Part shown: positions 3,599 through 63,762 of the stretch, piece after piece | Layout: each line of letters starts with the position of its first letter | Position numbering within the stretch: the stretch's first letter is position 1 | Assembly (NCBI RefSeq): GCF_963675165.1 | Contig: NC_087377.1 | Location: 14,008,198-14,072,197 of the forward strand | Reading direction: 5' to 3' | Length of the DNA: 64,000 nt | DNA from: Halichondria panicea | Taxonomy: Eukaryota; Porifera; Demospongiae; Suberitida; Halichondriidae | Translations under genes and position numbers: made by a program | Notes under the pieces: model-generated | Database searches by the model: none | Seen by the model: the letters and a program-made list of their open reading frames with translations, nothing else | What the model was told of the DNA's origin: nothing

Positions 3599-3704
3599 TC
3601 ACCACAGAAACATCTTATTCATCTGGGTTACATTGTCCTGGTTGTAACTGCACACTTGACAGCTCAGTCTCAAGGTGGGAAATCAAAGCGTCACTCGTGC
3701 ATGA
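3599..3704 (+). other. Ambiguous relic: signal-peptide exon lacking ATG, or Ig fragment
   Basis: In one frame, 3623-3674 aligns with the signal-peptide exon of gene F and ends at a phase-1 donor (CAAG|GTGGGA), but the codon matching F's ATG is CTT. In another frame the same DNA reads like an Ig strand (His-Cys-Pro-Gly-Cys-Asn-Cys-Thr, then Ser-Arg-Trp-Glu-Ile) and stops at a TAG. Either reading leaves the true first exon of gene A unidentified. Confidence 0.35.
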
Positions 3705-3733
3705 ATAGTTGATCTTGTTGTTTCCTTTTGAAG

Positions 3734-5318
3734 GTACAAATCCATCAGTCACACTGATTGTTGAAGGAGGAGAGAGTCTGGTTGGTGAACACTGTCCTGG
3801 AACTGTCAAGATCTCATGCATTGGAGTCGACTTGTCGATTTTAAGGTGGAGATTCAATGGGAGCACAGATGTAGTAACATTTTTCTCCGACAATGTGGCA
3901 CGTTCTCCATTCACAAATAATCCAGCATTTATAAGTGCCGAGCTACTGTCTACAGCACCAGATCAACTAGATCCAAACTTTGCTAACTTTTCTTCAGAAC
4001 TTGTTGTAGATGTGTCAAAACTAAAGACGGAGAGTATAACAAGTATTACTTGCGGTGAGCCAGATACTTTCAAAATGATTCCAGTGGATATTGAAATTAT
4101 ACAACAAACTGAGCCTGAGAGTCCCAATGGAACTAATGTGAAAATTCTCTATGAAGATGGATCATTGACAGATGTCACTGTTTCTTGGGAAAAACTGGTG
4201 AGCTATTAACAAGAGAAAAGTTTTAAATGAAATAATGTTTTTTCGCTGCAGGAAGCACGTTGTCCAGTATTTCAGTCTTATTTAGTTTATCAAGTTCAGT
4301 TTGGCTCTAGTGTTGTTGCAATAAATCACACAAGCTGTGGAGAAGTGTGTATCGTCAATTTTCAGAATTTTTCTGATGCTTCTGAGGGGTATAGGGTATC
4401 ACTATCTGCTGTGAATGTAATCGGGGCCAGTAAAGTTGTGGAACATCCAACCCTCATCGGTGTGTTTAACGCTAAATACATTAACACAAACTCAATCATG
4501 TATGACCCACATTTCCTTGTGCATATATAATTAAGCAGGTTACTATTCTATTTCAGTGAAACAAAGCAGCTTCTACTTCACACCTACCTTCCTCTCAAAC
4601 GACTGTCTGTTTGTTTGCGAGTGCTTCTCAAATAGAAGTCTTGATACAGACAGTTGCAATGTGTTGTACACGACTGACTCGATGTACAGGGATCCAACGA
4701 TAATTGTTTCTCCACTCGATACACAATTTGAAATAGCTGAAATAACTTCTAACACAGTCTATTATTTTGAATTCTCCGTGTCTGTGAATGGCACTCTGCT
4801 TGTTAGGAACAGACTTACTGAAAAAGCGATATCAAGTGAGTAACACACAATTATAGACGTTAACTACTGAATCTTCACTGTTTCAGGTCCGAGGTTCAGT
4901 GCAGTGGCTATTGTTTTCCTTGCTCTAACTATTTTGCTTATCACTGTCGGAACAGCATTTGGTATTATAGGTACATTATAATGTAAAGTTGCCTAAACTA
5001 CCTTGCACATTTTTGCAGTTATCTGTGTTGCTAAGCAATTGCAATTGCAAGGGGTTCTAGCAAATATTGTTTTGTTTATGGTATGTCTCTTGGGAATGTT
5101 GAGCTTGATTTTTCTTATTGTTTTCTCTATTGTCACTGGTGTTCAACAAGGTAAGTTTTTACTGAGTTGATTTTATTTTATAAGACGTCTCTCTGTAGAC
5201 ACATGCAGTCTGGATTGGATCAGAGCACATGATGCATTGGTCATTGTGGCCTTTCTGTTTGCTCTATTTGGAAATGCTCTTCTGGTCTGTTTCCTGCTTG
5301 CTTCTTACCAACAGAAAA
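3734..5318 (+). CDS. Gene A ectodomain and transmembrane exons
   Basis: The 464-nt Ig exon begins in phase 1 and contains the signature GEHCPGT, a first Ig cysteine, the Arg-Trp core tryptophan and a second cysteine before Gly-Glu-Pro-Asp. FN3 is split by a phase-0 intron after Val-Ser-Trp-Glu-Lys-Leu and ends with the typical Tyr-Arg-Val-Ser-Leu-Ser-Ala-Val-Asn strand. The 279-nt next exon is Cys-rich and ends with YYFEFSV. Three exons of 84, 132 and 120 nt each encode one hydrophobic helix. Exon sizes and phases match gene F nearly one for one (470, 211, 279, 81, 126, 126 nt), which supports the model independently. Confidence 0.85.
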
Positions 5319-8300
5319 GTAAGGCATCTTTAATTTTTAAATTAATGGCAATAAATTTAATTCGTGCCTGTGCCTGTTGTCAGAGTTTGGCCAGATGAAT
5401 TTACAGCGTAGCCAAAACGGTTCCCAGATCAACATGCATAGGTAGGTATATAATCATAGTATATATAGCCGTACAATTAATATTTTTGATTTCCTCAGTA
5501 ACACCATATTCTCAGGACAAGCAGACACAACAGCTGAGGTTAGTATATAGTTGCTTTTCTATCAAACATATTGTGCATGCGTTGCATATATAGGATTTGA
5601 CTAGCAATTCCAAAGCAAATCCCAAGAAGACGAACACCGCTTCAGTGCCCAAAGATGTAGTAGCACCTTCAGAGAATATAGACGGAGAGCTGGAGTCTAG
5701 TCCAAAGAAAGGCCCATCATCTGCGTCTAAGAAATTCACTGTCTACAAAGTTGTAGTCACTCTTGAGGATAGGTCATACTTTGTGTTCAGAAGGTGATTA
5801 ATGCTGTCCTTTGTTAGATCATGATGTTAGATATATCGGCATTGCAGATACAGTGAATTTGAATTCTTTTTTGGCGAAATTAAAAAGGAGTACCCATCCT
5901 TGGATAAACTGACATTTCCAGGGAAGAAAGTCTTGAAGAAAAAATTCGATCCGAATTTTATCGAAGAACGTCGCATCGGGCTACGTGATTTCATTATCAA
6001 CCTTATGAATGTATGCTTCAATGTAAAATAGACAGTGATGAAGTATAATTTTAATCAAACACACCTGCAGATCCCCAACATTCTAGAATATCTCCCGGTT
6101 CGTGAATTCTTGGCCATCGATGACCCACGTTCAGCACTCCCCATCAACGACATGCCGGCAGCCGAACAGAAAGTGAAAGAGGCGGACAGGGTGGAGCTTG
6201 GTAAGAAAGAGGACACCACTGCCAAGATCACTGACCTAGACTTGCTCAAAGTTATTGGGAAGGGAACCTTCGTGAAAGTAAGTATAGCTTGTGAGAGTTA
6301 GTTTACAGAAATTATTAAAGCCTGACCTCCCATGCAAAATGTTGCTACAATTTAAATCACCTATCAGGGCTCGAAATTACAGTCTGACAATTAACAGACA
6401 AACCCGGTTATCATGTGCACGTGACCGATCATTTCACGTGTTAGTCACACATAGAATACATGTAAAGCTAGCTATAGCCAGAGAGCTAGCTGTTCAGTCT
6501 AGCTCTAAGAGGCCTTGTCAAAAGTGCTCAGAAGAACCTACGAAAATATTAAGTGTGGATAAATGCATCAGTAAAGAACTACAAACTGCCTCATGGTTCA
6601 AGTACATAGAATGTAGTTTGCTCTCTCTCTCTTTCTGGCTGGTGAGTTTTCTCTCTATACGAAGTTTCAAGATAAGCTATCCCGCCTAAGAAACTTTTTG
6701 ATGGCTCAAGAAATCTTTGAGCGTCCAACCAGCCTCATACACAAAACTAATGATTTTGTGTGTGTATGCCTGATTTTGTAGAAATTGTATGACCAACTTT
6801 AATAATTATTATGTTGAATGCATGTCTGAACATGTTGTCAAATCAAAACATTAATTGGACTGACATTTGACAGGCATGCAAATATTTTAATTGCGAGCCC
6901 TGCCTATTGCCACGGTCAGGTTTAGCATATTTTGGCCCAGCCCGGATCTTTGATGTACAGGCACACATATAATTATATATATATATATAGCACAGGTTAA
7001 ACTCTTAAGGTTACGGTCAATCGTTTTGCTCATTAATTATTCATGAGCTAGATCTAGTGATCTTTTCCAGCTAGAATGAGCTGGAAGTCCAGCTGAAATG
7101 CAGTAGTCATTTCATGGTTCGAATACACATTTTTACTATAAAACTTAGGTACAGTCTACTGTAGCTTCACTATATGCAGGGCGGGTCGAAGAGATATTTC
7201 GAAAAAAGGCTACTGAAAGCTCACAAGAGGCTGTTTTCCTTGGCTCTGGCCGCAATTTTAAGTGAAGTTAGTCTACATATTATTATTAATTTTTGTGAGA
7301 GTTTCTTGGCCTGGAAAGAAAAAACGCTTTGACCCGCCCTCCAGAATGGTAAGAAGCATCATATAAGAGAAAGAACACAGAGCTAGAAGTGTTTTTGGAA
7401 GCTTAAAATGGCTACTAGTTTGTGTTGTTTCTAGTAACTTGAAGATTGCTCAGAGCTTCCACTGGAAAATGTTTTGAAGACTAATACTTGTCATACAGGA
7501 TGATACACCAATATATTTATCATGTATATGCTTCAAACTTTTATCACGGCATGTATAGTTTCACAAAAATCATTTGCAGTAACTGTAGGGTATATACATG
7601 TATCTCTAGCCCATTAAGTGGGCTAGTATACTCGGGTATATTAAGGACTGGGACCAAAGGAGGTTGGTCACGATTGTTAATTAATCTTCTAATTTTCTTT
7701 GTAACCTCCAATTCCGTGGAAACTTGCAGAGAAAGTAGCTATCCTAGCTAAGCTAAAAGGCTGCAAACGATCATAGCCTTTTATACCAGTAGGAAATGAT
7801 GCTAACAATACTCAGTGACCCTAGAAAGTGAGTAGCATAGTCATACTCGAGCCAGAAACTAATACTATTAGTCACAAAGTTCCAGTTGTTGCTGCACTTT
7901 CCTTGTTTTTTTTCCTCCTGTCTTAGATTGGCTGGACCAAGATTATATAGCTATAATTATAGGGTAGAGCATAGTTTAGCGATGCTGCATGTATGCAGCT
8001 TGCACTATAGTGACTGGCAAGAATCTAGTAAACACTGTATGCACTGTTAACTCGCCAGAATAGAGGGGATCGGGTTGGTTAATGAAAGATTTATATCCAA
8101 AGAAGCCAGAGAGACACATAAAGTTTGCACTTAGAATTAGAAAATTAGAAGATTAATTAAAAATCGTGACCTTCTGGTCAGAGTCCTATACCTGGTCATA
8201 GTGTCCCTCGGTCCAGAGAGTCTTGCAAGGGTTGATGTATACGCTACGAATAGCTGGAGGCCTTATTTAATAAATGATTGTTCTTGTGGCGGGTTTATAG

Positions 8301-11300
8301 TCACTGCATGTAAGAGGCTAGCCTCGATTCAAGGCCGATTAAAATACGGCCTGGTATACCATTGCAAGGGTGATAGTGAGCATGCACTTCAAATTACCCA
8401 GAATATGGGTAATCGTACTACGAACGTAGTTAGTTCATTTACTAAGACCGTAATACTTTATCTCTATGACTGAGTTCCGTGAAGCTGTGACTTATGCAAT
8501 CTATTGCATTGGTGTAGAAGGCTTGAACACTAGTCTAAAGACAAAAGAGGCTCTCGTCTACGTCTACGATCGTCCTATAGCCAGGTTTTGTTCGCAAATA
8601 GCAGTTATAAGAGGCACCATACACTTCCCATAGACTGTACACATCCAAGCTAAAAGACATCCTGACCATACAGCCATCATAGAGGTAGACGAGAGCCTCT
8701 TCTGGCTTCAGACTAGTGTGAAAGCCTTCTGGAACAACGCAACAGAGAGCTAAGCTGATGTACAGTGCAACAACCAAAGAAAAGTTAATTTAGAGTATAG
8801 ATATATTTTTTTTACAACTTTTTCACAGTTTGCTGCATATCTTTTGAAGTTTAGGTGATACACAGCAAAAACACATAATTATGTTATATGAGATGCATCA
8901 TCGTATTTTAGTGTTAAAATGACAGAAATTTATGTCATTTCTACACGAAATTTCAAAAGATGCGTTTCATTTAACATGTTTTATGTTACTGTAACGAACA
9001 TGTTTTTACTGTGATGATCTATTTGAGTGTAGGTACTGAAAGTTCAACTATTGGCGCTTCCATTGGACCACCATCTGTTACATCATAATTATTATGACAT
9101 CATTAATATAAAATGGCTGTCTGAAGATGTGTACCTCTGAAAATAATTATGTTAGAAATAGAAGTAGCTTATTTGTTTGAGTTTATTGTGCATGTATACC
9201 TGATTATAATTATTGCTCCTTCAACGGAAGTCTGGGCTAGTAGTAAGTTCTGCACTTTTTAGTGGTAAATAATTACGTTAGGAATACATGCAACTTTCAT
9301 TTTATGCTAGTTAAGGTCTGATTTTTGAGAAGCATTTACTACAATAGCGTAAAATTCATTTGCACTAACTTACAGGAGCTAGACAAGTTTCTTCTTTGCT
9401 AGAGCGGCCCTTCTTGTCAAAAATGGTGATTTTGCTCCGTTTTGCTACTTTTTACTGACGTAGCAATTGATTTATGACATCACAAATCATCTTGTTGTTA
9501 TTTGCTACATCCAAAGGTCATGTGATGTCTACCTGCAACTACACAGTTGGGTCATTCTGTGTCACAGGGGCAGCATGGCAATTGAGCTTACTACATAGCG
9601 CAAAGTCATAAAAGTGACAAGATGGGCCGCTCTAGCCTAACTCGATCCTGTAAGTTAGTACAGATGAAAAGTACACTTAGTACATGCTGCTCAAAAATCA
9701 GAACTTAACAAATATAAAATCGAAAGTTGTATTCCTAACATAATTATTTTCCACCAAAAAACAACAAAATGCAGTATTTCTCAGAACTTACTAGTAGCCC
9801 AGACTTCCGTTGAAGCTTAAAAGTTTGAACAATTAGGTACATGCTCAACAAATTTCAGATCTTAACTCAAAGAAATAAGCTACTTCTATTCCTAACATAT
9901 TTTTGGAAGTACACATCTTCAGACAGCCATTTTATATTGATGATGTCATGTATTGTAACAGGTGGTGGTCCAATGGAAGCGCCATGCAATTGTTGAACTT
10001 TCAGTACCTGCATGCACTCAAATAGATCATAATTATCACTTTTACTTTGGAAGATATGCCACAAAATGTAAAAAATGTGTACCAAAAAAATCTACTCTCT
10101 TTGGTTGTTGCACTGTACATAGAAGAAGAGAAAGAAAAAGGGGATTCCCCATATTCTGGTGAATAAACTAACGCATGCGCACTATCACCCTTGCAATAAG
10201 TACCAGGCCGTATTTTAATCGGCCTTGAATCAAGGCTAGTAAGAGGCATATAGTTAAAGAAAGTTTGGCTTCGCTGCATGTGGAATGATAAGTGCATGCA
10301 TGATGGTTTAAAGATTCTTGTGTTGACGTACAGCAAATTTAAACCTGTATGTGATCGACTATTCAACACCACTATATATATACCACTATCAAATGATTGA
10401 TTTTCGATTCAACCCGGATATATAGCCTCGCTTCGCTCGGAATAATTAAGTCGTGCCGGACATTTATTCAACAGATTGCTTTATAATCGTATTATGTACT
10501 CTTTAATGCTATATCACCATGCATCACACAGCAAAAACACAGAATTATGTTATATGAGATACATCATCGTATTTTAACACTAAAATGACAGAAATATATG
10601 TCATTTCTACATTAAATTTCAAAAGATGTTAACATGTTTTATGTTACTGTAACGAATGTGTTTTTACTGTACATAATAGTGTACCCTGTCACACGTACCA
10701 CACACTCTAACCACATGCACATACCCTCCCCATGCTTTCACAGGTCTACCTGGGTCGACACAAGAAAACTGGTGCTTTCTATGCCATCAAAGTCCTGCAA
10801 AAGGAAGCAGTCGAACGCAGCGAGTTTAAACTCATCATGGCCAGGAGAAGCGTCGCAATCCACCCATTTCTAGTAGGCCTACAGTGCTCCTTTCAGACGA
10901 GGACCAAGCTATACTTTTTGTTGGACTATGTGAATGGTGTGAAGTTGTTCTTTCATCTGCAAAGGCAGAAAAATAATGTGTTCGACGAGCCTATTGCAAG
11001 GTGAGTATAGTCAGACACCAGTTATTATTAAATGCTAAGCGGCTTATTAATATTTTAGTTAGCTGCATAGTTTAAACTACAGCTTGATCAGTCTGTTGCT
11101 GCTCCTGACATAATAATGATCAACTCTATACATACATGAAGTGTAGTATATATAGCCTTCTAGCAAGTTACTATTATGTGTTGGTTTTTGAATTCCTGAG
11201 TGTCGTACAGTGTCATGTCTGAAACGTTGCTAAGGAATGGACAAAGAAATTCAGCAAGAGCATAACTCAGATTCCTTTTTCTCAAAAAGCGGCCTGGATT

Positions 11301-14300
11301 CGAGCTGGTTCAAATAAAGGGTGTGGTCTCTTACGCACCTACGCAACACTAGAACCACACCCTTTTCTTTTAAAAAGGTGTGGTGTCTATAAGATTTCAT
11401 TTCACAGATTTGGTTCGACATTTCATGGAATATTTCGGATTTCAGCTTGTATACGAGATCTGCATGTGTAGCAAGTGCTATAGATACTCATAGCAAGTCA
11501 GCAAAGACTTGAACTTCTGAATCACACAAAGTAATCACACAAAGTAAACAACATAGATGTACACTGTTACTTCAGCTATATACTGTTCTTAGGTACTCTA
11601 GTACATATAATATTATAGATAAACCCTTTCCTGGCTTTAATTAAAACAAGAAAATACAGAATAAATACACGTTTTTCTTTAAAAATCCATATCTCATGAA
11701 CCATACATTGAAATGACTCGTAACTATTTCCTACAGGTAGCCCAGACACCATGACATCATCATCGTTACCTAGCAACTGACCACCCCCAACTAATTAGCA
11801 ATTGTTTCCAAACATTCACAATTATGTACACAAACAATATTGTATGAAAGCACAAAGTGACTATAGACACTAAGTAAGTGTTCTCAATGTTCTCACGGTG
11901 ACATGGTTCGATCAGGATCTGCCGAAACTTCTCTGCCAGGTCGTATCAGCAGACGCCCTTTTCCCAGGAAACGTTTTCTTCACCGGCCTACACACAGGCT
12001 TACAAGTTCAATGGTGGCTCATGATGTCCACTACTGTACTAACTAGTCTAAGCAAACCTATACTGAAGCTATCACAATACAGTCTGTTGTACAGATGCTA
12101 CTTTAGACTTACCAGATCCATAAACTTGGTCCGACATGCACCTTCATGCAGGCTCCTCATGCTCTTTATTTTCTAGCTTGAGGTAGCTTCCTACCTAGCT
12201 ATGATCCCAGTCACTGTCCTCTCACTCAACAAGGACATAAACATTGACATTTTCACTGTCTAGCAGCTCTAAAACTTCACTGAGGTTGTACTACGAAGAT
12301 CTTGAAGACTAAGTCATCATCAAACGGTCACTTTTCTTTTGACAGTACTGGGCAAAGCGCACCTCAAGGCAAGATATTGAAAATACCACGTAAAAGAGCA
12401 GCTCAATGCGCATGTGCCGGTACCTACAGCGTGCGCATAGCTCCAACACAGCCCGCACAACGAAATTTTGAAAAATCTCGGTAGCAAGGACGACATATGT
12501 CGTCTAAAGCCGGGAAAGGGTTAATGCTTGTAGGGTGCATGGAAAAGGAATGCGGAATGCGGACACGAAAAGCGGAAACGGAAATATCTTAGCTGTCTAA
12601 AGTTAACAACCATCACCATTCTGTGTTTTTTTTTACACAGAATTCATGGTAATGCATGGTGAGCAAAAAACACAGAATGGTAATTATGCCTATAGGTGTG
12701 CGTGCGCGTGGTGCGTGTGTATGTGTGTGTGAGTGCGTGCGTGTGTGTGTGCAGCCATTAATTTGAGAGACTTGGACTTTTGGCATCGATCGTTTTTAAC
12801 AACAATCATGGTCGATCATTACCCACTCCTTGAGTTTGCATGCATGCAGCAATGCAAAAATTCATCATTATGATAATTATAATGTGTGTATAGCTTTGGC
12901 ACCTAGGATTTCATATTATAATTGCTATCTTGCATGAGAAACAAAATGTCATAAATGAAAACATGAAGAGCTGCTTTAGAGACACTCTGGGAGAGGGCTT
13001 GGGCTCAGGCTGAGCTTTTCCAGCTTTCTCGAGGATTTCTCATTGACTTCACAGTCAACGATTGTCAAGAACTGGTTCTAAAACTGTGGCCTGCGTACAG
13101 TGAACTGTCAATGCCCCGTGATGAAAGAGCCTTACGGAAGGAGGAGGTAACGTTTAATTTTGGGGCGAACACGCATAAGCGAACTCTGTATTTTACAATA
13201 ACTTGTAATTTTGTGACGTATAATTATATGGTCCAAGGCCAAAAAATAACAAATTAGGGCCCCGAACGTGGGAACAAGAAATCATGATCGACCATGATTG
13301 TTGTTAAAAACGATCGATGCCAGTGCCAGTACAGTGTTGCTCATTTGGGAGCCCTGTAGCAGAGGAGGGTGGGGCATTAGGGGGTGTGGTATGATGGATA
13401 CGCACCGTCTGATACACTTGCATATAGACGCAGTTATATGTAGAGGATCATGCTGAGCTTAATAATACTCTCTAGTAGTTGCAAAGCTCCACCGAGGCAT
13501 CAGCACCTGCGGTGTTTTCATTAAACCAATGAATATAAACATGAAAGTGAATGAAGTAAACATGAAAGCACCTTGTCTCAAGCTACCTTACCTATAGTTG
13601 CTCCTTGAAGCTAGATAGATTAGATAGGCTTCCCCACAGCATCGCTTTACAAATACGACTGCGCCTACAAATTTTCTCTCATGCTTTCATGTTCATTTTA
13701 TTCATCAGTCAGAATAGTATAATGGTCGTTAACTTTAGACAGCTGAGATACTTCCGTTTCTGTTTTCCGTTTCCTTCTTTTCCATGCACCCATGCTTGCA
13801 TGCTTCATAAATTATCTTGTTGAGGCTGCTGCATGAGGAAGATATCCCATGTGTCGAACTTAAACTCTTCATCACTACTCTGATTTGACCACATGCACTC
13901 ATTCATATACTGAATATTTTGTAGACACTACTAGATATTGTCAAGGGCGTATAAAAGAAGAGAGAGCATGCAACTCCACTATCAGTACACGTATAGCTAT
14001 ATAGCAGAGTTCAAACGTGTGCGGAGGAATGTGTGCATTTGCATGAAGTGCTAAAAATAGAAATTTCTATTTTTAGCAAATCATGCACAGTCATGCACAT
14101 TCATCCGCCCACGTTTGAACTCTGCTCATGCATTTGGAGTTGCATGCCCTCTCTTCTTTTATACGCCCTTGATATTGTAAAATGGCTCTTGTCTGGAATC
14201 TCTTTGCTCAGCTTTAGAAACATCTCTTCACTTCAATTTAGCAACCTAGGCAACCAAAACACGTTCAATATAAAACCTTACCATGAATGAATAATGGCTT

Positions 14301-17168
14301 TAATTTTTGCCACATCGTCTAACATTATAGTATTCTTAGTACATAATGGCGTGCAAGTGAAAATTTATCTGACGGCAAAAGGGTTAAAAAATGCTGAATC
14401 AGCAAATAAGCCTAGCGATTATAGCAATGAAAGTACCGCAGGTGCTGATGCCTCGGTGGAGATGCCAAAGCTACATAACATAAAGCTAGCCTGCTAATAG
14501 CTTTGCTATTAGTATAGGGTGTATGGAAAGAAGGGAAGGAAACGAAAACGAAAATGGCATAGCCCGAGGGATGAGGGACACTATAACCATAGATACATAA
14601 ATCAATGAATAAATAAACGTGCAGAAGAGTAAAACCAAAAACCGGACAAGTCCGATGAAGACTACCAGTACTGTTTAGATGGCTAGGTTCAGCCATTGCA
14701 GCTTTATCTCACAGTCGATGTTTGCAAGGGTCTTACTTCTCCAACATAATTACAATGCTGCCTGACGTCATCTGTTTAGTACTTGCTAAAGCTGGATGTA
14801 TTCAAGTTCTCAGATTCTCTCCTATATATACCTGCTTTTCCATGTACTCAACTTTCAAATTCAAATAGGTTCACTTCATTCACTCTGATCGACCAGGAGC
14901 GTGGGAAGCATGCTCTGGAGCACCCCCTTGTCTCAAGCTACCTTACCTAGATAGGTTTCCCCATGCACAGCACCCCTTCACAAATACATCTTCCTACAAC
15001 TCTGCTCTCAACTAACTTTCCATGTTCATCAGCATGCAGTATTCATGTGAAAAAATACAGAATGGTAATGGTCGTTAACTTTACACAGCTGAGATATTTC
15101 CGTTTTTTCCGTTTTCATTTTCCGTTTCCTTCTTTTCCATGCACCCGCTTTTATACACAATTCACATTAATTTTTTGCAATTTTGCTGCATGAACTCAAA
15201 GTGTGGGTAATAATCGAACATGATTGTTGTTAAAAACGATCGATGCCAAACGTTCAAGTCTATAATTAATCGGGTTGTATCATCAGAGCCTTGCAGCTCT
15301 CTTCTCACTCTTTCTTGCAGCTATCAATAGCTAGTGTTCTAGTGCAGAGCTAACTACTAAGTAGAGTAGCAATACTCGGTAAACAAGTTTGGCTACGTGC
15401 TCTTCTGAAAAGGCTACAATGGCATTCCAAGTAAGCAAAACTAGGCATAACTCGAGAACAAAGCATTATTTTGCAAATCCACGAATTAAATCCAAAAAAA
15501 CATGACTAGAAGCCTATATACTTGCACTTCATTGATCCTTGAGCAGCGGGGTAGTCTCATGGATCAGCCCCCTCCTAAGAAGGGGTCTGAGCACTCTTGT
15601 CTTGAGGTCATTTCCCAATGGAATGTGCCAGACCAATGGAATGTAATCAATTCCTGACCTTACGCCCGCGTATTTGTTAATTATGCCTCGAGGTGTAGCC
15701 GCACGAGGGATACGGTAAAGTGTGTGTGTGTGTCTGTCTGTGGGTGGGTGGGTGGGTGGGTGTGTGTCTGTTCCAGCTGTAACTGCTCAACGGTTGCAAT
15801 GCGACGAAAACAAACAGCTTCTATAGGCTTCTAGCCACGTTCTCTTGGATTTTGATTCGTGGATTAGTAAACTAAAGCTTCTTTCTCAAGTTATGGCTAG
15901 TTTGACTCACATTGAAGGCCTCTAAGATTATTCATTAAGCCATCAGATAGGCTTCTGTTTCCATTCAGCTCCTCTCCTATAATGACTGTGTGGAATTCAA
16001 TTCTGTCAACAATTGTCAACAATTGCAATCAACAATTGCAATCAACGTAACATATATCTCTTCACCTCTTCTAATAGTTTTTGAGCGAAAGCAAAACAAC
16101 AGCGAGAGGCATTAGCACAGCACAGCTTGCACCACTCGTTCGTTTGGTCAGTGATCGGTTCGTTATGGCAAAAATCGAATTATTGGACAGTATTTTTCAA
16201 ATGATTACTGTTCCAACTGGAAGTGACCTGGCCTATCCAAATGTTCGCTTGTTAATTGTTACATGCATGGCCACCATTATAAAGTAGGAAAATTAGTTTC
16301 ATAATTTGTTCGTGCATTACACGACCTTTTAACAGGCGCACTTTGATGTCTAACGGAGTTCGGCGACTTGCTGTATAAGTTTTAAAGTGGCCGACAGGCC
16401 CTTAAAAACACTCTTACAAAAACACTCATACAATTGCAGCTATTAAAATAAGGTCATGCACTACTGCCATGCTCAAACGTGTTATTATTTACCCGTTACA
16501 GATTCTATGCTGCCGAGATCACCTCTGCCCTCGGGTACCTGCACAGTCTCAATATTATCTATTGGGATCTCAAACTTGAAAACATTCTACTAGACGCTAA
16601 CGGCCATATCATGCTAACAGACCTTGGACTCTGCAAAGAAGAGGTCAAATTTGGAGAGACAGTAACAACTTCTGGCAGCCCCAAATGCCTAGCCCCTGAG
16701 GTGCTCAGAAAGCAAGAGTACGGTTACAGCGTCGACTGGTGGTGTCTGGGCGTGGTAATCTATGAAATGATGTACGGGCTGCCACCGTTTTATTCTGAAG
16801 ATGTTACTGAATGGCACAACAATATTTGTCGTAAGTCATTACAACTTCGGAATCTGCCTAACATCACTCCCAGTGCTCGAGGCCTACTCGAAGGTTTGCT
16901 GCAAAAAGACAAAAATCATCGATTAGGAGAGAATGGTGATCATAACGACATCAAGGTTCACTCATTTTTCAAGTCCATCAACTGGGATGCCCTGTTCCGT
17001 AAGCGATTGAAGCCTCCGTTCAACTCTCCTCCGGTAAAGGATACCCTCAAACTTGGACATTTTGGGTCCGAGCTTATTGCCGAGGCTATTTCTGGCGCAC
17101 AGAAACACGGGACAGTGCGTGTGCCATGTGTGAGCATTGCTGAAGACACTTTTAATGTAATGAACTAG
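3734..17168 (+). CDS. Gene A: three-pass Ig/FN3 receptor fused to PX and SGK3-like kinase
   Basis: Fourteen exons were chained by splice sites and phase: 3734-4197, 4252-4459, 4557-4835, 4887-4970, 5019-5150, 5199-5318, 5384-5441, 5499-5538, 5594-5793, 5848-6010, 6071-6277, 10744-11000, 16502-17168, plus an unseen first exon. The junction phases all agree and give about 959 codons without an internal stop. The order is an Ig-like domain (residues about 1-130), FN3 (130-224), a Cys-rich membrane-proximal domain (225-317), TM1-TM3 (320-425), a linker, PX (508-605) and an AGC kinase fold (638-900). With a cleaved signal peptide, three helices place PX and kinase in the cytosol. SGK3 PX domains bind PI3P; that function here is inferred. 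No start codon was found, and key kinase residues are changed. Separate receptor and kinase genes remain possible without cDNA. Confidence 0.72.
5384..6277 (+). CDS. Gene A linker, PX domain and kinase glycine loop
   Basis: Two short exons (58 and 40 nt) and a Lys/Ser-rich stretch lead into a PX domain. Recognisable PX features are Val-Tyr-Lys-Val, the RRYSEF motif split by a phase-2 intron, Phe-Asp-Pro-Asn-Phe-Ile, and Glu-Arg-Arg-Ile-Gly-Leu. These match the PI3P-binding basic residues of SGK3 (CISK) by family knowledge. The last exon ends in the kinase glycine loop GKGTFVKV, where the third glycine of GxGxxG is Val651. The spacing from the TM3 exon is only 65 nt, which leaves no room for a separate promoter and terminator. 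Confidence 0.82.
8518..8727. mobile_element. Small foldback element
   Basis: About 50 bp at 8518-8570 pair with the complement of 8675-8727; the shared core is AGAGGCTCTCGTCTAC. The loop is about 110 bp. No coding capacity or clear target duplication is seen. Confidence 0.6.
8763..10115. mobile_element. Palindromic MITE, CAGTGCAACAACC ends, TA target site (copy 1)
   Basis: The element is flanked by TA on both sides and its ends are exact complements (CAGTGCAACAACCAAAGA). Most of its 1353 bp is one long imperfect palindrome, with a GAGCGGCCC block inverted around the centre. A second copy lies at 23881-25120. TA target sites and CAG ends are typical of Tc1/mariner/pogo MITEs, and the pogo-like transposase at 21.9-23.7 kb is a candidate mobiliser (inference). 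Confidence 0.8.
10744..11000 (+). CDS. Gene A kinase N-lobe exon
   Basis: This 257-nt exon runs in phase from the glycine loop. It encodes Tyr-Ala-Ile-Lys-Val-Leu-Gln-Lys with the ATP-anchoring lysine (Lys668) and HPFLVGL, Ser-Phe-Gln-Thr and FFHLQR strings typical of SGK kinases. The alpha-C glutamate of the family Met-Ala-Glu-Arg-Asn motif is Arg686 here, and the alpha-C to beta-4 segment is several residues shorter. The family Gly-Gly-Glu-Leu-Phe is Gly-Val-Lys-Leu-Phe. A degraded copy of this exon lies at 37676-37850. Confidence 0.88.
12696..12754. repeat. TG/CG-rich microsatellite
   Basis: The stretch alternates GTGTG, GTGCGTG and GCGCG units over about 58 bp. It is simple-sequence DNA just outside a foldback element. 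Confidence 0.8.
12781..13322. mobile_element. Foldback element, TGGCATCGATCG ends
   Basis: The first 38 bp and last 38 bp are complements with one or two mismatches (core CGATCGTTTTTAACAACAAT). A solitary copy of the right end recurs at 15213-15248. No open frame of note is inside. Confidence 0.7.
13480..14472. repeat. Inverted repeat pair with inner palindrome
   Basis: About 42 bp at 13480-13522 (including CACCGAGGCATCAGCACCTG) pair with their complement at 14430-14472. Inside lies a second, nearly continuous palindrome at 13941-14172, whose arms carry TCAAGGGCGTATAAAAGAAG and a central AATAGAAATTTCTATTTTTA hairpin. This looks like one foldback element inserted into another. Confidence 0.6.
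15430..15930. repeat. Dispersed repeat with (GGGT)n tract
   Basis: The segment containing CGCACGAGGGATACGGTAAA, a TG-rich tract and TCTAGCCACGTTCTCTT recurs at 63855-64000. The phrase GCATTATTTTGCAAATCCAC also recurs near 59.18 kb. At 15740-15762 five consecutive GGGT units could form a G-quadruplex. The repeat has no coding content that I can support. Confidence 0.6.
16502..17168 (+). CDS. Gene A kinase C-lobe and C-terminal exon
   Basis: One 667-nt exon completes the AGC kinase fold to a TAG stop. It starts with Arg-Phe-Tyr-Ala-Ala-Glu-Ile and matches SGK kinases through [22 protein letters not shown] and the PPFN tail start. Deviations are Tyr-Trp-Asp (758-760) for the family Tyr-Arg-Asp, Asp-Leu-Gly (778-780) for Asp-Phe-Gly, and an activation segment reading TTSGSPKC where the family has TFCGTPEY. 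Asp760, Asn765 and Asp778 are kept. The C-terminal hydrophobic motif of SGK proteins is not recognisable in the last residues. Weak or absent catalysis is inferred. Confidence 0.9.
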
Positions 17169-17313: not shown

Positions 17314-17319
17314 AATAAA
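17314..17319 (+). terminator. Candidate polyadenylation signal of gene A
   Basis: AATAAA lies about 145 nt after the gene A stop codon in AT-rich DNA and is the first consensus hexamer there. Confidence 0.5.
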
Positions 17320-19012: not shown

Positions 19013-20932
19013 GTGTCTTTTTGTATACCCCGAAACTGTTCTGGGTGCAAGCCACGTTCAATAATACCTTTGATGCCGTGGACAGCGGAAATAGTCTCGT
19101 CAGAAGCAGCTAGAATAAATAAATTAAAACACAACACTGTGACTGGAATTTAAACTATAACCTTTGACTTCCAGAGTGCTTACAGCCTTGGGTACTGGTT
19201 TACTCGCTGGTTTACTCTCTCCTCTGAGTTTCATTTTGAACCCTGAAAGATTGGATGATTTTTATGCCACATAATTATAAGCACATTCATTAATGCCTTG
19301 GACAGCGGAGGTAGTCTCGTCAGAAGTAGCTAAAATAGATTAATTAAAACCACAACACTGCACGTGACTGGAAATTTAACTAACCTCTTTTGACTCCCAG
19401 AGTGTCTTCAACCTTGGGCGCTGGCCTTTTAGACCCTGAACATTTGTATGACCTTCACACCAATACGTATGGGCATATTCGATACCTTTTGCAGATGTAA
19501 GATCTGTGCCATTGGTGGTCGTCTCGGCAGAAGTAGCTGGAATAATGAGATACATTAATTAAAACACAACACTGTGATTGAGCAACATAAACAAACATTT
19601 GACTCCCAGTGTGCCTACAGCCTTGGGCACTGCTCTTCTGAGAGTCCTCTTGGGTTCTGAAAATTGTAAGACTTTTATGCCACGTGTATTGGCATACACG
19701 TCACTGATACCTTTGATGCTCTTAACAGACGTAACACCTCTAGTCTCGTCAAGAGTAGCTGGAATAATGAGATACATTAATTAAAACACAATACTGTGAT
19801 TGAGCAACATAAACAAACATTTGACTCCCAGTGTGCCTACAGCCTTGGGCACTGCTCTTCTGAGAGTCCTCTTGGGTTCTGAAAATTTGTAAGACTTTTA
19901 TGCCACGTGTATTGGCATACACGTCACTGATACCTTTGACGCTCTTAACAGACGTAACACCTCTAGTCTCGTCAAGAGTAGCTGGAATGGGACTGGGCAA
20001 TGAACCTTTGACTCCTACAGTCTTGGGCGCTGGTGTACCCCCTCTTCCGATTGTCATATTGGGCTCTGGAAATGGTATGACTTTCATGTATCAGTATGCC
20101 ACGTATATATGTACGTAAAATAATTATTGGGACATTAATAGTAATACCCTTCGCAGACGTAACACTAAGAGGTATTAGGTAGTCATTAAACAAACCTTTG
20201 ACTCCCAGTGTACCTGCAGCCTTGGGCATTGCTTGACACCTTCTTCTTAGCGTTCTCTTGGGCTCTGCACAATTGTAAGACGTTCATGCCACATATATAT
20301 ATTATGTACACAATAATGCACATTTCGAAATCAGATACCTGTGATTCCCTTTGTAGACGTAGAGGTAGATCTTGTCTTGTCAGCAGTAGCTGGAAAATTT
20401 GCTACATAAACACAACACGGGAAGGGACTGGGCAAAAAACTAACCATTGACTCCTACAATCTTGGGCGCTGGTGTAGACGTAGAGGTAGATCTTGTCTTG
20501 TCAGCAGTAGCTGGAAAATTTGCTACATAAACACAACACGGGAAGGGACTGGGCAAAAAACTAACCTTTGACTCCTACAATCTTGGGCGCTGGTGTATCC
20601 CCTCTTCTGGGTGTCCTCTTAGACTCTGAAAATTCCGGGTGTGAATTTCGCTTAAAAATATGCACATCAAATACCTTTGACTTCTATCCCAGACACGTCA
20701 TCCTCACCATCAGACATAGTCGTGGCTACATAACGAGTGACTCAAATTGAACATAGGGTGTAAAAGTTAATTGTTAATTATACCGCTTAGACTGGTGCTA
20801 GCTTCTTGCTGCTCAGTGAGATAGCCCAGAGAAGCTGCAGTCTTATCAATATAAATACCAAATGCATGAGCATATCTAAACTTACCAGACTTAGAACACG
20901 TCGTATGCTCATCTGAAACAGTACAACCAGAA
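19013..20932 (-). CDS. Repeated 3' exons of the Ulp1-PHD gene
   Basis: Downstream of the PHD exon the minus strand continues as short exons that all start and end in phase 1: 20885-20932, 20784-20834, 20673-20723, 20566-20625, 20445-20510, 20339-20389, 20196-20264 and further copies to about 19050. They fall into two alternating types. One encodes an acidic/threonine string such as ATLDETRGVTSVKS; the other a basic string such as PKRTLRRAVPKA followed by GTLGVK. One exon (20445-20510) is a fusion of both types. A short final exon with a TGA near 19013 is possible. The repeats would extend the protein with alternating charged linkers. Some copies are decayed (about 20145). Confidence 0.6.
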
Positions 20933-27382: not shown

Positions 27383-30300
27383 ATGATGCAATGTTATGCA
27401 AGATGCTTTGTACTCTTTCTGCTAAGCTGGTTACACTACTGCCAAGGTATGATAGAAATAATTATTCTAGAGACGTTATACACTATATTTGTTAACAATG
27501 ATAGGAATATCAGTAAGTGTAATTACGGATGATGGAAAAGACACACTTTCTGGTTCATACTGTCCTACTACTGTTAAGCTTATCTGTAATGTTACAAATC
27601 TTCCTAATTTGCGATGGACGTACAATGCCAGCAAAAACATAATTGTTCTTCTTCTCCCGGATGATGTACAACACTACCCAATCCCAGCATTTCCATTTTA
27701 CCAGTTAACACAGTTTAATGTATACAAAAATCATATGAATCTGACTCGGATTAATGCTTCAACGATTCTCACTGTTGATCTGTCAGATCTGAACAAACAG
27801 AATATTGAAATTATTTCTTGTGGTTCTTCTTTTACGGACAAGACAGTGCCAGTGAATATCAGCATTTTGCAGCCAACATTTCCTTCTGTTAGCCCCCAAG
27901 TTTATACAGCTGTGATTGTACGCTATGAGTCTAGACTTATATCAAGTGTAGATGTATCATGGAGAAAATTTCAGGTATGTTATATGTATAATTATATATA
28001 GCACTGTACTTAAACACAAAATGTTTGCTATAGCAACCAGATTGTCCTGAATATGAAAATTCCCAAGAATACCTCATCAATGTCACTGGATGTGGGTGGA
28101 CATGGCTCAACCAAAGCACCTGTCAAGACACTATTTGCTCGTCTGTTTTCTGTAATTGTACGGAGAACGTGAGTGAAATCACCCTACAAGCCAAGATCGC
28201 TGACACTGAGAGTGAGCAAGTAGTTTTTCCCACGTCTGTAGGTGAGAGCATTAATCTAGTAGATTTTACATTTATCGACTTTTTTTACAGATTCCAATAA
28301 TCGCTACTTTAGAGCTGCTCTTAACCAGTCGTCAAGGTGCCAAATTCATGTGCAGTGTTTACCCATGAGAGGAGATGTTAGTATACATCAAATGTGTACC
28401 ATTAGATACACTACAGATCCGGATTATGGAAATCTATCAAATCCTATCACAACTCTAGTTGGCACAGCACCTGTCTCACTTTCACTTACTACTCCTGGTA
28501 CCATATACTACTTTGAGTTCTCCGTGTTGATGAATGATACCCTGTTGATTGTGGAACAAATAGAGTACATGATTACAGAATCAGGAGGTACGGCACGTGA
28601 TTAAGAGGTTTATACACTTCAATTAGCACAAGAAGTTCATGCACTTGTGTTCATTTTCTTACCGTATTCCATACACCTACAGAATCATTCCAGTTGGGTG
28701 CAAGAGAAGGCGTCATCATTGCCATTGTATCAGTTTTCTTAGGATGTTTTACTGTGCACACTACTATCATGATATTGTGCCAATTAACATTTAGCAGTAA
28801 GCAATTCTTGTCACTGGGATGGTATATAATGATAATATTATTACAGGTGATGATCATACTGTTTCCAGATTGAAAAAGTTAATTACTAACAAACAAATTA
28901 AAATCTCGATAACACTGATTCTCCTGGTGCTGTTTATTGGGTGTATCACTCTGCTGACAACTTTTGCCATTATTTCAAACGGTATATTGGAGTAGTATGC
29001 TAATCTGATTAAGAATCAGAGTGTTTTCTTTTGTGTTTGAGTGTGTTTCTCTTCATATAGATATGTGTTTCACAAACCAACAAGTTCCCAACAGTTTGCT
29101 TGATACATTGTTAGTAATTTCAATCATTGGGATAGCATCCATTCTCCTTTATTGGGTCTCAGTGGGATACACAGTTTATAAACAGAGTACAACAGAAGGT
29201 AAGATATTACAGTTGTACATATAGACTCATCTTTTTTATGCAGGAAACAAAACCAAGCTTCAAACAATGTATGTTCTCCCCCAGTAACAATGTTCTGTTT
29301 ATGTGACATACAATAATTATAGGTTTTGTTGCAACAACAATCTTCACAAGAACAGCAAATCAAAAACGCATGAATGTAATATCCAAGAGGTAATTTGTTT
29401 ATGGTTTGTGATGTAGATTGTATTTACGAAGGATATATACCACATGCAGGAAAACTATAACACTGTGAAGCACACCCATAGTTTAAGGCCATCAGACAGA
29501 CATGACATACAGGACGAAATTTACGGGAAACTTGAAGAGGTTTTACTATCATGTATATACTCTAGAATAAATATTAGGGAATAAAATAAGCATTGCATCA
29601 ATGTCCATCTTTGGTAAATAATTATTCATAACAACATCCTATAAAGGTTGGAGACTGGAGAGTTTATAGTCGGCAAAATAACACTGAGAGTCATATTATG
29701 TGTTTTGTCACTTGCATGTGCATGTAATAATTCGGATTTTGTATGGAGACAAATAGAATATAATGGGGGGGCCGGAAGAATAATATTATTTACTCTGTCA
29801 ATTTCCCCCCTAAATTAGACATTTGAGTATCTCCCTATGAACGTCAGTGTGTATGAGCCACTGAGGGCTGGAGAAAAATCGCAACCTGTTCATAACGTAG
29901 CCAATGCAAGTTACTCCCATATTGGAAGACAATCAGAACCTGCTGATACTCACGTTCTATGCAACATGCAGATCCATAACATGAGAGTAAGACGTAATGT
30001 CATAATTATGCATAATATAACCTTGATGAACCTCAGGATGACTACGATGTTCTGGATAGAAATGAGATGTCCTTGTGTACCAGTGCCGATATCCATGATC
30101 CATGTGAATCGGTGTATGGCAATCTTGATGAGGTAAGCAAAAGTCTATATAATAAAAAATTATATCCATGCAACTCAAAACTATACGAGCACGCATTCAG
30201 TGAGACTATTTTTGTCACACAATCTAATAGGCCTCCATTGAACCCCATGGTGATGGTGTCTATAGTCAGCTAAGGCCAGGGGAGAAGTCAAGGCCAGTAC

Positions 30301-32247: not shown

Positions 32248-32727
32248 CCTGAAGTTCAGGAGGCAAGATTCCTCATTGCTAGTTATACTCCCCTGAGATT
32301 ATGTCATGAGCTTACCTTGCTCTGGACAAATCGAAGACCTATATATATATATATTCTCTTTTCAAATGAAAGAACAGCGCTCCACCATTCACATAATTTA
32401 TAATACAGTAAAAAATAATTATAGCTTATATTATAGTACTCGTCTGAAAGGTATAAGCGATGTTTTTCTCAGCCATGCACATGCTAATTTAATTGACCAT
32501 GTTGTGTTCGACGATTGTTTTCTTTTGAAGGATGTTGATGGCATTATAGAAACCACCAGTTCTTGTGGCGACTCAGGTAGACCTTTGAGGGTGCATGTGT
32601 GCATGTGCTGCTGCATGTGATGCATATATCATGTGTGGGTTAAAGCCTATAATTATGGCATGGTGAGGGTGTGTGTGTATAATTATATGACCTGCTTGTT
32701 CCATGAGTGCTATTGGAGTTTCCTTAA

Positions 32728-37675: not shown

Positions 37676-37850
37676 TCTAATTGGGTTGGATGCAAGGAAA
37701 CTGAGGCACCAATGTCCTGCAAAACAAAGATGAAACATATCATGCCCAAGAGAAATGTCATGACTCACCCATTTCTAGTAGGACTAAAATTAATATACTT
37801 TTTCAAACGAGCACTATAAGCCATACTTTGTGCTGGACTATGTGCATGCA
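37676..37850 (+). pseudogene. SGK-like kinase N-lobe exon relic 1
   Basis: The segment aligns with the gene A exon at 10744-11000. The strings HPFLVGL, Met-Pro-Lys-Arg-Asn-Val and a Leu-Asp-Tyr-Val stretch are readable across frames. It begins about 360 bp after the B' stop codon. Like gene A it lacks the alpha-C glutamate (Lys instead) and has the same shortened segment before HPFLVGL, so both changes predate the duplication. The relic is frameshifted and lacks the glycine loop. Confidence 0.75.
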
Positions 37851-44470: not shown

Positions 44471-44979
44471 ACCAAACTGAGAATGTAGTAGATGTTGCCC
44501 GACATCAATCAAATTATCAGTGAGCCATGCATCGATGTGGATGTTCTAAGATGTCTTTGTCGGCCTTGAATATTTAGCTTCAGTGATGGAGACCAAACTG
44601 AGAGGCCTTGACTCAGAGTTGTCTTCGCTCTTGTCATCTTGCATTGCTTTTCATCTCTTTAAAGCATTCCTTTTCTGTCGTCGTTTTGAATCTCTAGCAA
44701 AGCTTGTTCATTTCGAGATTTCTTGCATGGGGGAAGAACAGCAGGTGTTTCCTTTGTCATAATTATTATGTCTTCGTTTTAAATGTAGTGTGCAATTTTT
44801 TGAGAGCTTGACAATATTGGAAATGGGTATTGCTTGCTTGTATACTTGATAATAAGTTCAAAACAGGTGCTGGAGCCGTTAAGATAAAAATATCTTCATC
44901 AAGAAAACTTAAGTTTGGCTCTGGAACAATCTCAGTGTTTGCAATGATGGGGAAATATACGATAGCTCCAGTGGCGGGG

Positions 44980-45145
44980 AGGTAGGTGGGTTGGGAGGAG
45001 ATGAGCTGTGGGGCGGGGAGGTAGGTGGGTTGGGAGGAGGAGATGAGCTGTGGGGCGGGGAGGTAGGTGGGTTGGGAGGAGGAGATGAGCTGTGGGGCGG
45101 GGAGGTATAGATGAGCTGGGAGGAGGAGATGAGCTGTGGGGCTAC
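44980..45145. repeat. Minisatellite, about 42-bp unit
   Basis: Three to four units of a GGGGAGGTAGGTGGGTTGG-containing sequence are repeated with small deletions. In one minus-strand frame this reads as repeated Pro-Ala-Pro-Gln-Leu-Ile-Ser, which accounts for the long open frame at 44766-45167. A related but inverted stretch lies at 48385-48450. Confidence 0.75.
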
Positions 45146-51639: not shown

Positions 51640-51955
51640 TTCTGCTGAGATCACCTCTGCCCTAGGGTACCTAAATAGGCTCAATAATTTCTATTGGGAT
51701 TTCAAACCTAAAAAATTACTAGACACAAGGGTCACATCATACTAACGTGCTTTGGATTTCGCAAAGAAACCTTGGGGACGCGACCACCTCAACTTTTTGT
51801 GGTACCCCCAAACATAACAATTATATCCCAAAACAAAAGAGAGGCTGCAATGTCAACGGGTGGTATATACGTGGACTGGTCATGCACCTATACCTAATGA
51901 TGTAGCTGCCACCGTTTTATGCTTGAGATGTTGTTCTACTTTAAGAATCCATGTA
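51640..51955 (+). pseudogene. SGK-like kinase C-lobe relic 2
   Basis: The segment aligns with the start of the 16502-17168 exon of gene A. It reads [14 protein letters not shown], then Tyr-Trp-Asp-Phe-Lys-Pro, so the Arg-to-Trp change in the catalytic loop is shared with gene A. In contrast, the Phe-Gly after the metal-binding position and an activation segment TSTFCGTP (51785-51809) are retained, although the Asp itself reads Cys. Frameshifts and stops rule out function. It follows receptor fragment E within 350 bp. Confidence 0.78.
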
Positions 51956-61411: not shown

Positions 61412-63762
61412 ATGTTTCACCTGGGCTGGATCGTACTAACTGCCACTTCAGTTTTAACAACTCGGTCTGAAGGTGATCCTCCTGTATGTTATAATTAGAA
61501 AATGCTATTCACAAATGGTGCAAGCTGATTAGTTTCCTTATTTCACTTAGAGACCTATATATACCTCAGCATGCTGATCGAGGTCTTATTATATATACAG
61601 AGGTCCACTATGTACGATGTGTACTTATAGCAATTTATGTTGAAGTCACATAATTATAGTAATGATACAGCTAGTGCATAATTACAAACTAAGCTTGCTC
61701 TAGCAGCTACCAATAGCTAGTACTCTAGTGCAGAAATAACTACTAAGTAAAACAGTTACAGGCCTTGTACAACGGTAACTATATAAGAGACCTCCTCGAA
61801 CCCCTCGGGGACCTTGGACTCTTATAACTATATGGTATAGTGTAATTTACGTTGCTGCTTGTTTTTGAAGGTGCAAATCCATCAGTCACACTGACTGTTG
61901 AGGGAGGAGGGAGTCTGGTTGGTGAACACTGTCCTGGAACTGCCAAGGTTTTGTGTTACGGAATTCATTTGTCATTTTTACGATGGACGTACAACGGGAA
62001 CATAGATATAGTGTCTGCCTTTCTCTCAGATACCACATCACCTTCTTCTGTTAATCCTAATGATCCAGCGTTCATAAGAGTGGAGCTGCTATCGGTAGCA
62101 CAGGATCCAGCGTTCCTGAGTTTCGCTAACTTTTCATCTGAGCTTGTTGTAAACGTGTCAAATCTAAGAACAGAGAGTGTAATAAACATTACATGTGGGG
62201 ATCCAAATACTTTCAAAATGATTCCAGTGGATGTTGAGATTATCCAACAAACTGAGCCTGAGAGTCCCAATGGAATGAATGTGACAGCTCTCTATGAATT
62301 TGGATCCTTGACTGATGCCATTGTCTCTTGGAAAAAGTTGGTGAGTAAGTTATACATCAATGCTCATGTAAAATTGTAAACATATCGCATAGGAAACACG
62401 ATGTCCAGAATTTCAGACCTTCTTGATCTATCAAGTCACACTGTTGGACTCCGGTGTTGTCACAGTAAATCACACAAGCTGTGGAGAAGTGTGTATAGTC
62501 AACTTTCAGAACTTTTCCGATACTACTGAAGTGTATAGGGTGTCACTGTTTGCTGTTAATGCCATCGGGGCAAGTGAACTCGTGGAATATCCAGCCATTA
62601 TTGGTATGTCAACATTAATTATGTCAAAATACATTTATTATAGGGTCCGGCGATTTAATACATATAAAAGCTATGAAATAATTTATTCTAAGGCCATAAT
62701 TATATCTTACTATTAGCACAAACTTTTTCAGTGAAACGAAGCAGCTTCTACTTCACACCTACTTTCCTCTCAAACGATTGTCTGTTTACTTTTGAATGCT
62801 TCTCAAATGGAAGTCTGGATACAGACAGTTGCAATGTGTTGTATACGAATGACTCAATGTACAGGGATCCAATGATGATTGTTTCTCCACTCGATACACA
62901 ATTCAAAATAACTGGAATATTTTCTGATACTATCTACTATTTCGAATTTTCTGTGCACGTAAACGAAACTCTGCTTATTAGGAACAGATTTACTGAACGA
63001 TTAACATCAAGTAAGCTAGTGGTCATTCCGATGTTATATCGTTAAAGTTTTCCATATGCTTTAGGTCGGAAGCTCAGTACAGTGGTCATTGTGTTTCTAA
63101 CACTAACCATTCTGGCCATCATTCTCGAAGCAACATTTGGTATAGGTAAGTTGTAGTAAGTTTTAATTCGCTAAAGCTAGTCTTGCACCTCTTTTTGCAG
63201 TTCTCTGTGTTTTAAAACAACTGCAAACATTTCAAGCCAAGATTCTATTTCTTGTGGCTGGTTTTTCTGGTTTTTTGAGCTTACTTTCTGCTTTTGTTTT
63301 CTCAATTATCACTGGTGTTCAGCAAGGTAAGCAACTAATAATAATTGTTCTGACTTGAGAGGATTATTTGCAGACACATGCAGTCTTAGACTAGACTGGA
63401 GCAGAGCAAGCAATGCATTGATCATTTCGGCCTTTATTTTAGCTCTAATCGGGAATATTATTCTAATCGGCATCTCGATTGCTTCATGCCTAACGAAAAG
63501 TAAGGCCTTTTCAATATATCTTTAACTATTTCAATACCATGCACCTGTTCCACTCTCAGAGTCCAGCAAGATTATAATTAATTTTAAATTGCAATCGGAA
63601 CATAGGTCTTCTCCAGTTGATGAAATTATGCATAGAAGGTAATAGCAATGATTAGTCATAATTATTATAATAGTAATCTTAATTGCTAATTATAGACTTT
63701 TCATGAAGGGTGACACTGTTCCAGGTGGTGCTTCTAATACAAAAATTGAATCTTCAGTATAG
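61412..63762 (+). CDS. Gene F: three-pass Ig/FN3 receptor, short tail, kinase-less twin of A
   Basis: Nine exons join in consistent phase: 61412-61472 (signal peptide, MFHLGWIVLTATSVL), 61871-62340, 62393-62603, 62732-63010, 63065-63145, 63201-63326, 63374-63499, 63560-63638 and 63696-63762, giving 499 aa. Domains follow gene A: Ig (GEHCPGT, LRWTYN), FN3, Cys-rich membrane-proximal domain and three helices (exons 5-7). The tail is only about 48 residues and ends in TAG where gene A goes on into its PX-kinase exons; exon 8 of both ends near Met-His in phase 2. The protein may act as a ligand-binding partner without its own cytosolic module (inference). No lesion is visible. Confidence 0.87.

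Follow-up and report, generated by a model that had tools for sequence, protein, structure and literature searches.

Receptor tyrosine kinases (RTKs) cross the membrane once, and PXK and RPS6KC1 are soluble proteins that combine a PX domain with a degenerate kinase and are linked to the endosomal handling of receptors. In the accessible part of one account, SGK3 is described as being recruited to endosomes through binding of its PX domain to PI3P, with the PX domain also inhibiting the kinase, and as being activated by PDK1 and mTORC2 (PMC8318898). The available portion of a transcriptome study of the sponge Halichondria panicea describes numerous receptors bearing Ig, FN3 and tyrosine kinase domains (PMC8242945), and the allorecognition complex of Hydractinia is given, in the accessible portion of its source, an Alr family of 41 members (PMC11999971). 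Here, we describe a predicted gene of H. panicea in which two otherwise separate modules, an ectodomain for recognition at the cell surface and an SGK3 unit that senses lipids, appear to be united.

The window, i.e., the whole 64,000-nt stretch of DNA that was analysed, corresponds to C1:14008198-14072197 of H. panicea (demosponge, Suberitida), whose genome comprises 131 Mb in 39 contigs. Within the window, 14 exons at 3608-17168 on the plus strand splice into one open frame encoding, in order, a signal peptide, an Ig-like exon, two FN3-like stretches, three membrane helices, a linker of ~90 residues, a PX domain and a kinase. The features of this copy (P1), which has two full paralogues (P2 and P3) and an NCBI counterpart in LOC135351103 isoform X2 (P0001, 980 aa), are as follows:

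3608..3674, plus strand: signal-peptide exon, KHLIHLGYIVLVVTAHLTAQSQ, with a phase-1 donor; agrees with P0001 from its third residue onward; the MK codons with which P0001 starts lie further upstream
3734..4197, plus strand: exon A, Ig-like domain; weak fold support, no Pfam Ig match
4252..4459, plus strand: exon B, FN3-like by eye, without Pfam or fold confirmation
4557..4835, plus strand: exon C, second FN3-like stretch by eye, without Pfam or fold confirmation
4887..4970, plus strand: exon D, first membrane helix; a second donor at 4961, the one used in P0001, shortens the exon by 9 nt, and both are in frame
5019..5150, plus strand: exon E, second membrane helix
5199..5318, plus strand: exon F, third membrane helix
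5350..5355, plus strand: AATAAA in intron F-G; no in-frame stop ahead of it; P2 and P3 have no AATAAA in this intron
5384..5441, plus strand: exon G, cytosolic linker (predicted)
5499..5538, plus strand: exon H, cytosolic linker (predicted)
5594..5793, plus strand: exon I, linker and start of PX
5848..6010, plus strand: exon J, PX
6071..6277, plus strand: exon K, end of PX, linker and glycine loop (GKGTFVK)
10744..11000, plus strand: exon L, kinase N-lobe; alphaC Glu replaced by Arg, four alphaC-beta4 residues missing
16502..17168, plus strand: exon M, kinase C-lobe and stop; YWD for YRD, ends FNVMN, without hydrophobic motif
17314..17319, plus strand: AATAAA, possible poly-A signal 3' of the stop

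When spliced with the exon-D donor at 4961, these exons reproduce P0001 from residue 3 to its end, P0001 being an NCBI gene model of a kind that may be partly ab initio and representing 4 clustered sequences. The claim of the sequence-only reading that fourteen exons run in phase from an Ig exon through three transmembrane exons into PX and AGC kinase exons is thus confirmed, in one frame and against this protein. A chance assembly of exons was also considered and is ruled out by the paralogues and the NCBI protein. Between the signal exon and exon K the introns measure 48-97 nt, and the last two 4466 and 5501 nt. A pattern search for the upstream MK start exon returned none in the window 5' of exon A and one unconvincing match near the far end of L082.

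The signal peptide and membrane helices precede the kinase fold in one frame, which is the architecture of a receptor kinase. The Ig hallmark residues Cys28, Trp38 and Cys106 are present in 18 of 18 cases, and the Ig fold of exon A has weak fold support, with no match to any Pfam Ig family at E values up to 1; FN3 likewise gave no Pfam match, and the structural model lies below pLDDT 50 over region 135-345. The Ig and FN3 labels of the ectodomain are weak. One Lys/Arg residue follows the first membrane helix and three follow the third, with no acidic residue there; this pattern fits a cytosolic placement of the tail, and we infer a type-I-oriented, three-pass topology.

Receptor, PX domain and kinase very probably belong to a single gene, and receptor and tail are predicted to be spanned by one transcript. 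The splice borders and frame of the linker exons G, H and I are kept in P1, P2 and P3, the junction introns measure 54-65 nt, and exon I contains no Met ahead of the PX domain, all of which argue against two adjacent, tandemly co-duplicated genes, that is, a three-pass receptor ending near 5.35-5.5 kb followed by a separate PX-SGK gene. Tandem duplication of such a two-gene unit would likewise have kept order and spacing, and both the AATAAA at 5350 and an in-frame Met in exon G would suit it; however, read-through from exon F meets its first in-frame stop at 5396, past the AATAAA, which P2 and P3 lack in that intron, and NCBI models P1 and P3 each as a single protein. These points weaken the two-gene arrangement, which appears highly improbable.

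For the PX domain, a Pfam PX match was obtained and the best three solved-structure matches are Sgk3 chains (E 2.6e-24 to 1e-23), while the best solved-structure match of the kinase is Sgk1. The tail shows 60% identity to a PX-bearing SGK of Amphimedon (P0005), with equal domain order. In a kinase tree built from the M-exon region only, in which 6 of 23 inner branches are strongly supported, the fused kinases group together as a single clade (100/100) whose stem is long (0.73) and whose sister is an intact SGK exon of H. panicea itself (89/80), followed by Amphimedon (82/80). This intact SGK is known here from its last exon, the adjoining sequence being mostly N; the exon carries YRD, DFG, TFCGTPEY and FAGFSY, and its border is common to the fused copies. 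Taken together, the PX matches to Sgk3, the kinase match to Sgk1, the M-exon tree and the common last-exon border support descent of the tail from an SGK of this lineage. An origin of the kinase as a retrocopy is ruled out, since the fused kinase still has introns and its last exon begins at the same border as that of the intact copy.

Among 4045 candidates of 527-1676 aa, a protein search returned three proteins of H. panicea and an Sgk3 of an insect, and no other transmembrane-PX fusion was found either in that set or among the 8000 sequences scored in another search. Acquisition of the tail in this animal fits these protein searches. No published report of such a fusion was found at the level of titles and abstracts, a coverage outside which most subscription papers lie.

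Although the tail is SGK-derived, its kinase departs from working SGKs at several sites. The third Gly, the alphaC Glu, the HRD Arg and the hydrophobic motif are intact in 29 of 29 reference SGKs, which were chosen from 120 listed and all have GxGxxG, alphaC Glu, YRD and FxGF(S/T). In the fused copies, by contrast, the glycine loop reads GTFVK for GSFGK, with the third Gly replaced by Val in all three K exons and the first Gly also gone in P2 and P3; the alphaC Glu is replaced by Lys or Arg in 4/4 L exons; four residues of the alphaC-beta4 loop are deleted in 4/4; the HRD Arg is replaced by Trp (YWD) in 4/4 complete M exons; and the C-terminal hydrophobic motif is gone in 4/4, the protein ending FNVMN or FSVMN. 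Trp at the HRD Arg position also occurs in four short kinase fragments and in the one relic readable there. The Pfam family Pkinase_C, which is present in the Amphimedon SGK, was found in neither P0001 nor P0002, the NCBI protein of P3. Because these common losses fall at sites invariant across the 29 SGKs, the fused kinase is a probable pseudokinase. An active SGK is judged unlikely, as catalytic and regulatory sites are lost together in all copies read, and the SGK3-like kinase proposed from the sequence alone is not supported as a working enzyme.

It also has to be weighed whether the fused receptor is a functional Ser/Thr kinase of unusual chemistry. Some kinases without textbook residues are active, and the fused copies keep the VAIK Lys, the HRD Asp, the catalytic-loop Asn and the DFG (or DLG) Asp, with the activation-loop Thr present in some of them; since the Lys of VAIK and the Asp residues of HRD and DFG are retained, some catalytic activity of the tail might persist. 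Nevertheless, the joint loss of the third Gly, alphaC Glu, alphaC-beta4 residues, HRD Arg and hydrophobic motif in all copies read, together with the missing Pkinase_C, makes a working kinase decidedly unlikely.

Three-pass relatives with exons D-F occur at six places, namely P1 in the window, P2, P3, P4, P6 and P7, with P1-P4 spanning the window and C1:14.22-14.47 Mb. The full paralogues P2 (C1:14224140-14236925) and P3 (C1:14401784-14410208) lie 0.2 and 0.4 Mb away from P1 and have exons A-M with the same borders; P3 is a single 994-aa protein in NCBI (P0002, representing 8 clustered sequences), and P2 was absent as a protein of its own from the protein searches. P0002 has 23 extra residues in the glycine loop, the donor used (C1:14404445) lying beyond the conserved one. 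P4 (NCBI P0003) is cut off inside PX, shortly past its start, and P5 consists of exons L and M, with no receptor found beside it. P6 and P7 have no PX or kinase exon in the ~1 kb after exon F. Short kinase-exon fragments, some with stops, are found elsewhere in the cluster, and the window itself holds the following relatives and relics:

61876..63486, plus strand: exons A-F of P7, a three-pass relative, with no PX or kinase exon in the following 1.0 kb
32354..32563, minus strand: relic resembling kinase exon L, with a stop
37721..37789, plus strand: short relic resembling exon L
51641..51932, plus strand: relic resembling kinase exon M, with stops

The window also contains a DDE_1 transposase ORF at 23000-20950 on the minus strand (Pfam E 6.7e-24). 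After it comes a frame whose matches to PHD (22.5 of 24 bits) and to the Ulp1 protease (19.5 of 20.7 bits) fall short of the cut-off, and small repeated exons extend as far as 19000. Two nearly identical copies of a 121-bp unit lie at 20352-20597, and four copies of a 42-bp G-rich repeat at 44973-45142.

In a tree of the three-pass relatives, the tail-bearing P1-P4 are split from the tail-less P6 and P7 with 100/100 support. This clean split points to a single fusion event, and one fusion in the ancestor of P1-P4 followed by truncation of P4 would be the simplest history. An intron-containing SGK copy would have been fused to the end of a receptor gene in this cluster, duplications of the resulting gene within the cluster would have followed, and the kinase would have decayed to a probable pseudokinase before or during these duplications, with PX and fold remaining constrained. 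The earlier proposal that a receptor family gained an SGK3-type tail by fusion is supported by this split, by the structure matches of PX and kinase, and by the kinase tree.

Constraint was assessed from dN/dS between copies (NG86, with bootstrap intervals). Values of 0.27-0.54 were obtained for the Ig exon, 0.26-0.42 for the FN3-like part, 0.42-0.95 for the membrane exons, 0.33-0.50 for PX, 0.23-0.40 for the kinase N part and 0.41-0.72 for the kinase C part, with 0.14-0.20 for the kinase C part against the intact SGK exon. Bootstrap upper bounds exceed 1 in two of six intervals of the kinase C part (1.08 for P1-P2 and 1.35 for P1-P5), in the P1-P2 and P3-P4 comparisons of the Ig exon, and in five of six membrane-exon pairs; given these bounds in the other parts, constraint is clearest for PX and for the N part of the kinase. 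Silent divergence between P1 and P3 is uneven, with dS of 0.59 in the Ig exon, 0.35 in the FN3-like exons, 0.10 in the membrane exons and 0.28 in PX. Such unevenness along P1-P4, high in the Ig exon and low in the membrane exons, suggests exon exchange or conversion between cluster members.

The wide intervals of the kinase C part, with upper bounds above 1, imply that the tail could be decaying baggage, in which case the ectodomain would do the receptor's work and the PX-kinase part would be in the course of loss. The truncation of P4 inside PX, the tail-less working of P6 and P7, the stop-bearing kinase fragments across the cluster and the kinase C values of up to 0.72 are all in keeping with such a loss. 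Against it, P1, P2 and P3 are open over the whole tail, the PX-kinase part being free of stops in each, and for PX and the N part of the kinase most dN/dS intervals stay under 1. Simulated without selection, the window tail rarely remained stop-free at the higher divergences (38/2000 runs at 0.08 and 10/2000 at 0.11 substitutions per site), which favours constraint; at 0.05, however, 153/2000 neutral runs were still open, which weakens the point. On balance, decay of the whole tail appears rather unlikely.

Taken as a whole, the evidence tips slightly towards one H. panicea gene in which an Ig/FN3-like three-pass receptor, a PX domain and an SGK-derived kinase fold were fused, duplicated in the cluster and, with the kinase decayed, turned into an endosomal anchor or scaffold. 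The fused protein retains the PX basic motifs RRYxEF and RR, and its PX domain may bind phosphoinositide (PI3P) directly. After ligand binding and internalisation, PX would bind PI3P on early endosomes and the pseudokinase would provide a docking platform for partners, so that the two could retain or sort the receptor at the endosome, or assemble a signalling complex without phosphorylation of their own. The tail is thus probably a PX-pseudokinase anchor that holds the internalised receptor on PI3P endosomes; an anchor is plausibly the most economical reading, in which PX adds PI3P affinity upon arrival of the receptor at endosomes. Provided that the tail acts in this way, residence at PI3P membranes would be built into the receptor. 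The gene also illustrates the probable passage of a kinase to a pseudokinase after capture by a receptor, which can be compared with an intact parent still present in the genome.

When the receptor half was searched against its own genome, 102 matches were obtained, and from 62 of these at least 54 near-full Ig-like exon matches were counted in C1:13.88-14.54 Mb, a 0.65-Mb cluster read in one haploid assembly, with 25 on the plus and 29 on the minus strand. This is a tandem IgSF family within one region, as in an Alr-like cluster, and the 0.65-Mb cluster is a candidate recognition-receptor locus. Inside the window, Ig-like exon matches occur at 27510, 34813, 41536, 54683 and 61876. The minus-strand gene at 42090-40598 encodes an Ig/FN3-like receptor that has a single membrane stretch and a tail rich in tyrosine (LSYDKV, VEYDYV), which resembles immune-receptor motifs. 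At 27471-30300 on the plus strand, another Ig-like cluster gene is followed by exons with several YxxL/V motifs, and one of these exons gave a below-cut-off match to Pfam ITAM (E 0.23). Tail types differ among the Ig-like genes of the cluster. It is conceivable, if doubtful, that the cluster is a long-sought sponge self/non-self (allorecognition or immune) locus in which some receptors would signal via tyrosine-motif tails and one branch via an endosome-sensing, SGK3-derived PX and pseudokinase, coupling outside recognition directly to PI3P membranes inside. Individuals of H. panicea express individual-specific receptor sets, according to the accessible part of the transcriptome study (PMC8242945), and a large tandem cluster of Ig-like receptors in a sponge is testable for allorecognition.

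Compared to the Alr family of Hydractinia, the H. panicea cluster, known from the sequence of one assembly, is likewise a tandem IgSF array (41 members versus at least 54 near-full Ig-exon matches in 0.65 Mb), whereas no PX-kinase tail is mentioned for Alr in the accessible portion of the source (PMC11999971). As in SGK3/CISK and other PX-SGKs, PX is followed by an AGC kinase fold; unlike soluble SGK3, the fused tail sits behind three membrane helices, and its kinase is without the hydrophobic motif, HRD Arg, alphaC Glu and third Gly. Ig/FN3 receptor Tyr or Ser/Thr kinases similarly carry an ectodomain, a membrane part and a kinase fold in one chain, whereas the sponge protein has an AGC-type fold with PX, three passes and a kinase that is probably dead. 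PXK and RPS6KC1 share the combination of PX with a degenerate kinase but are soluble and lack an ectodomain. The modules of this protein are already known, and their arrangement is a new variation.
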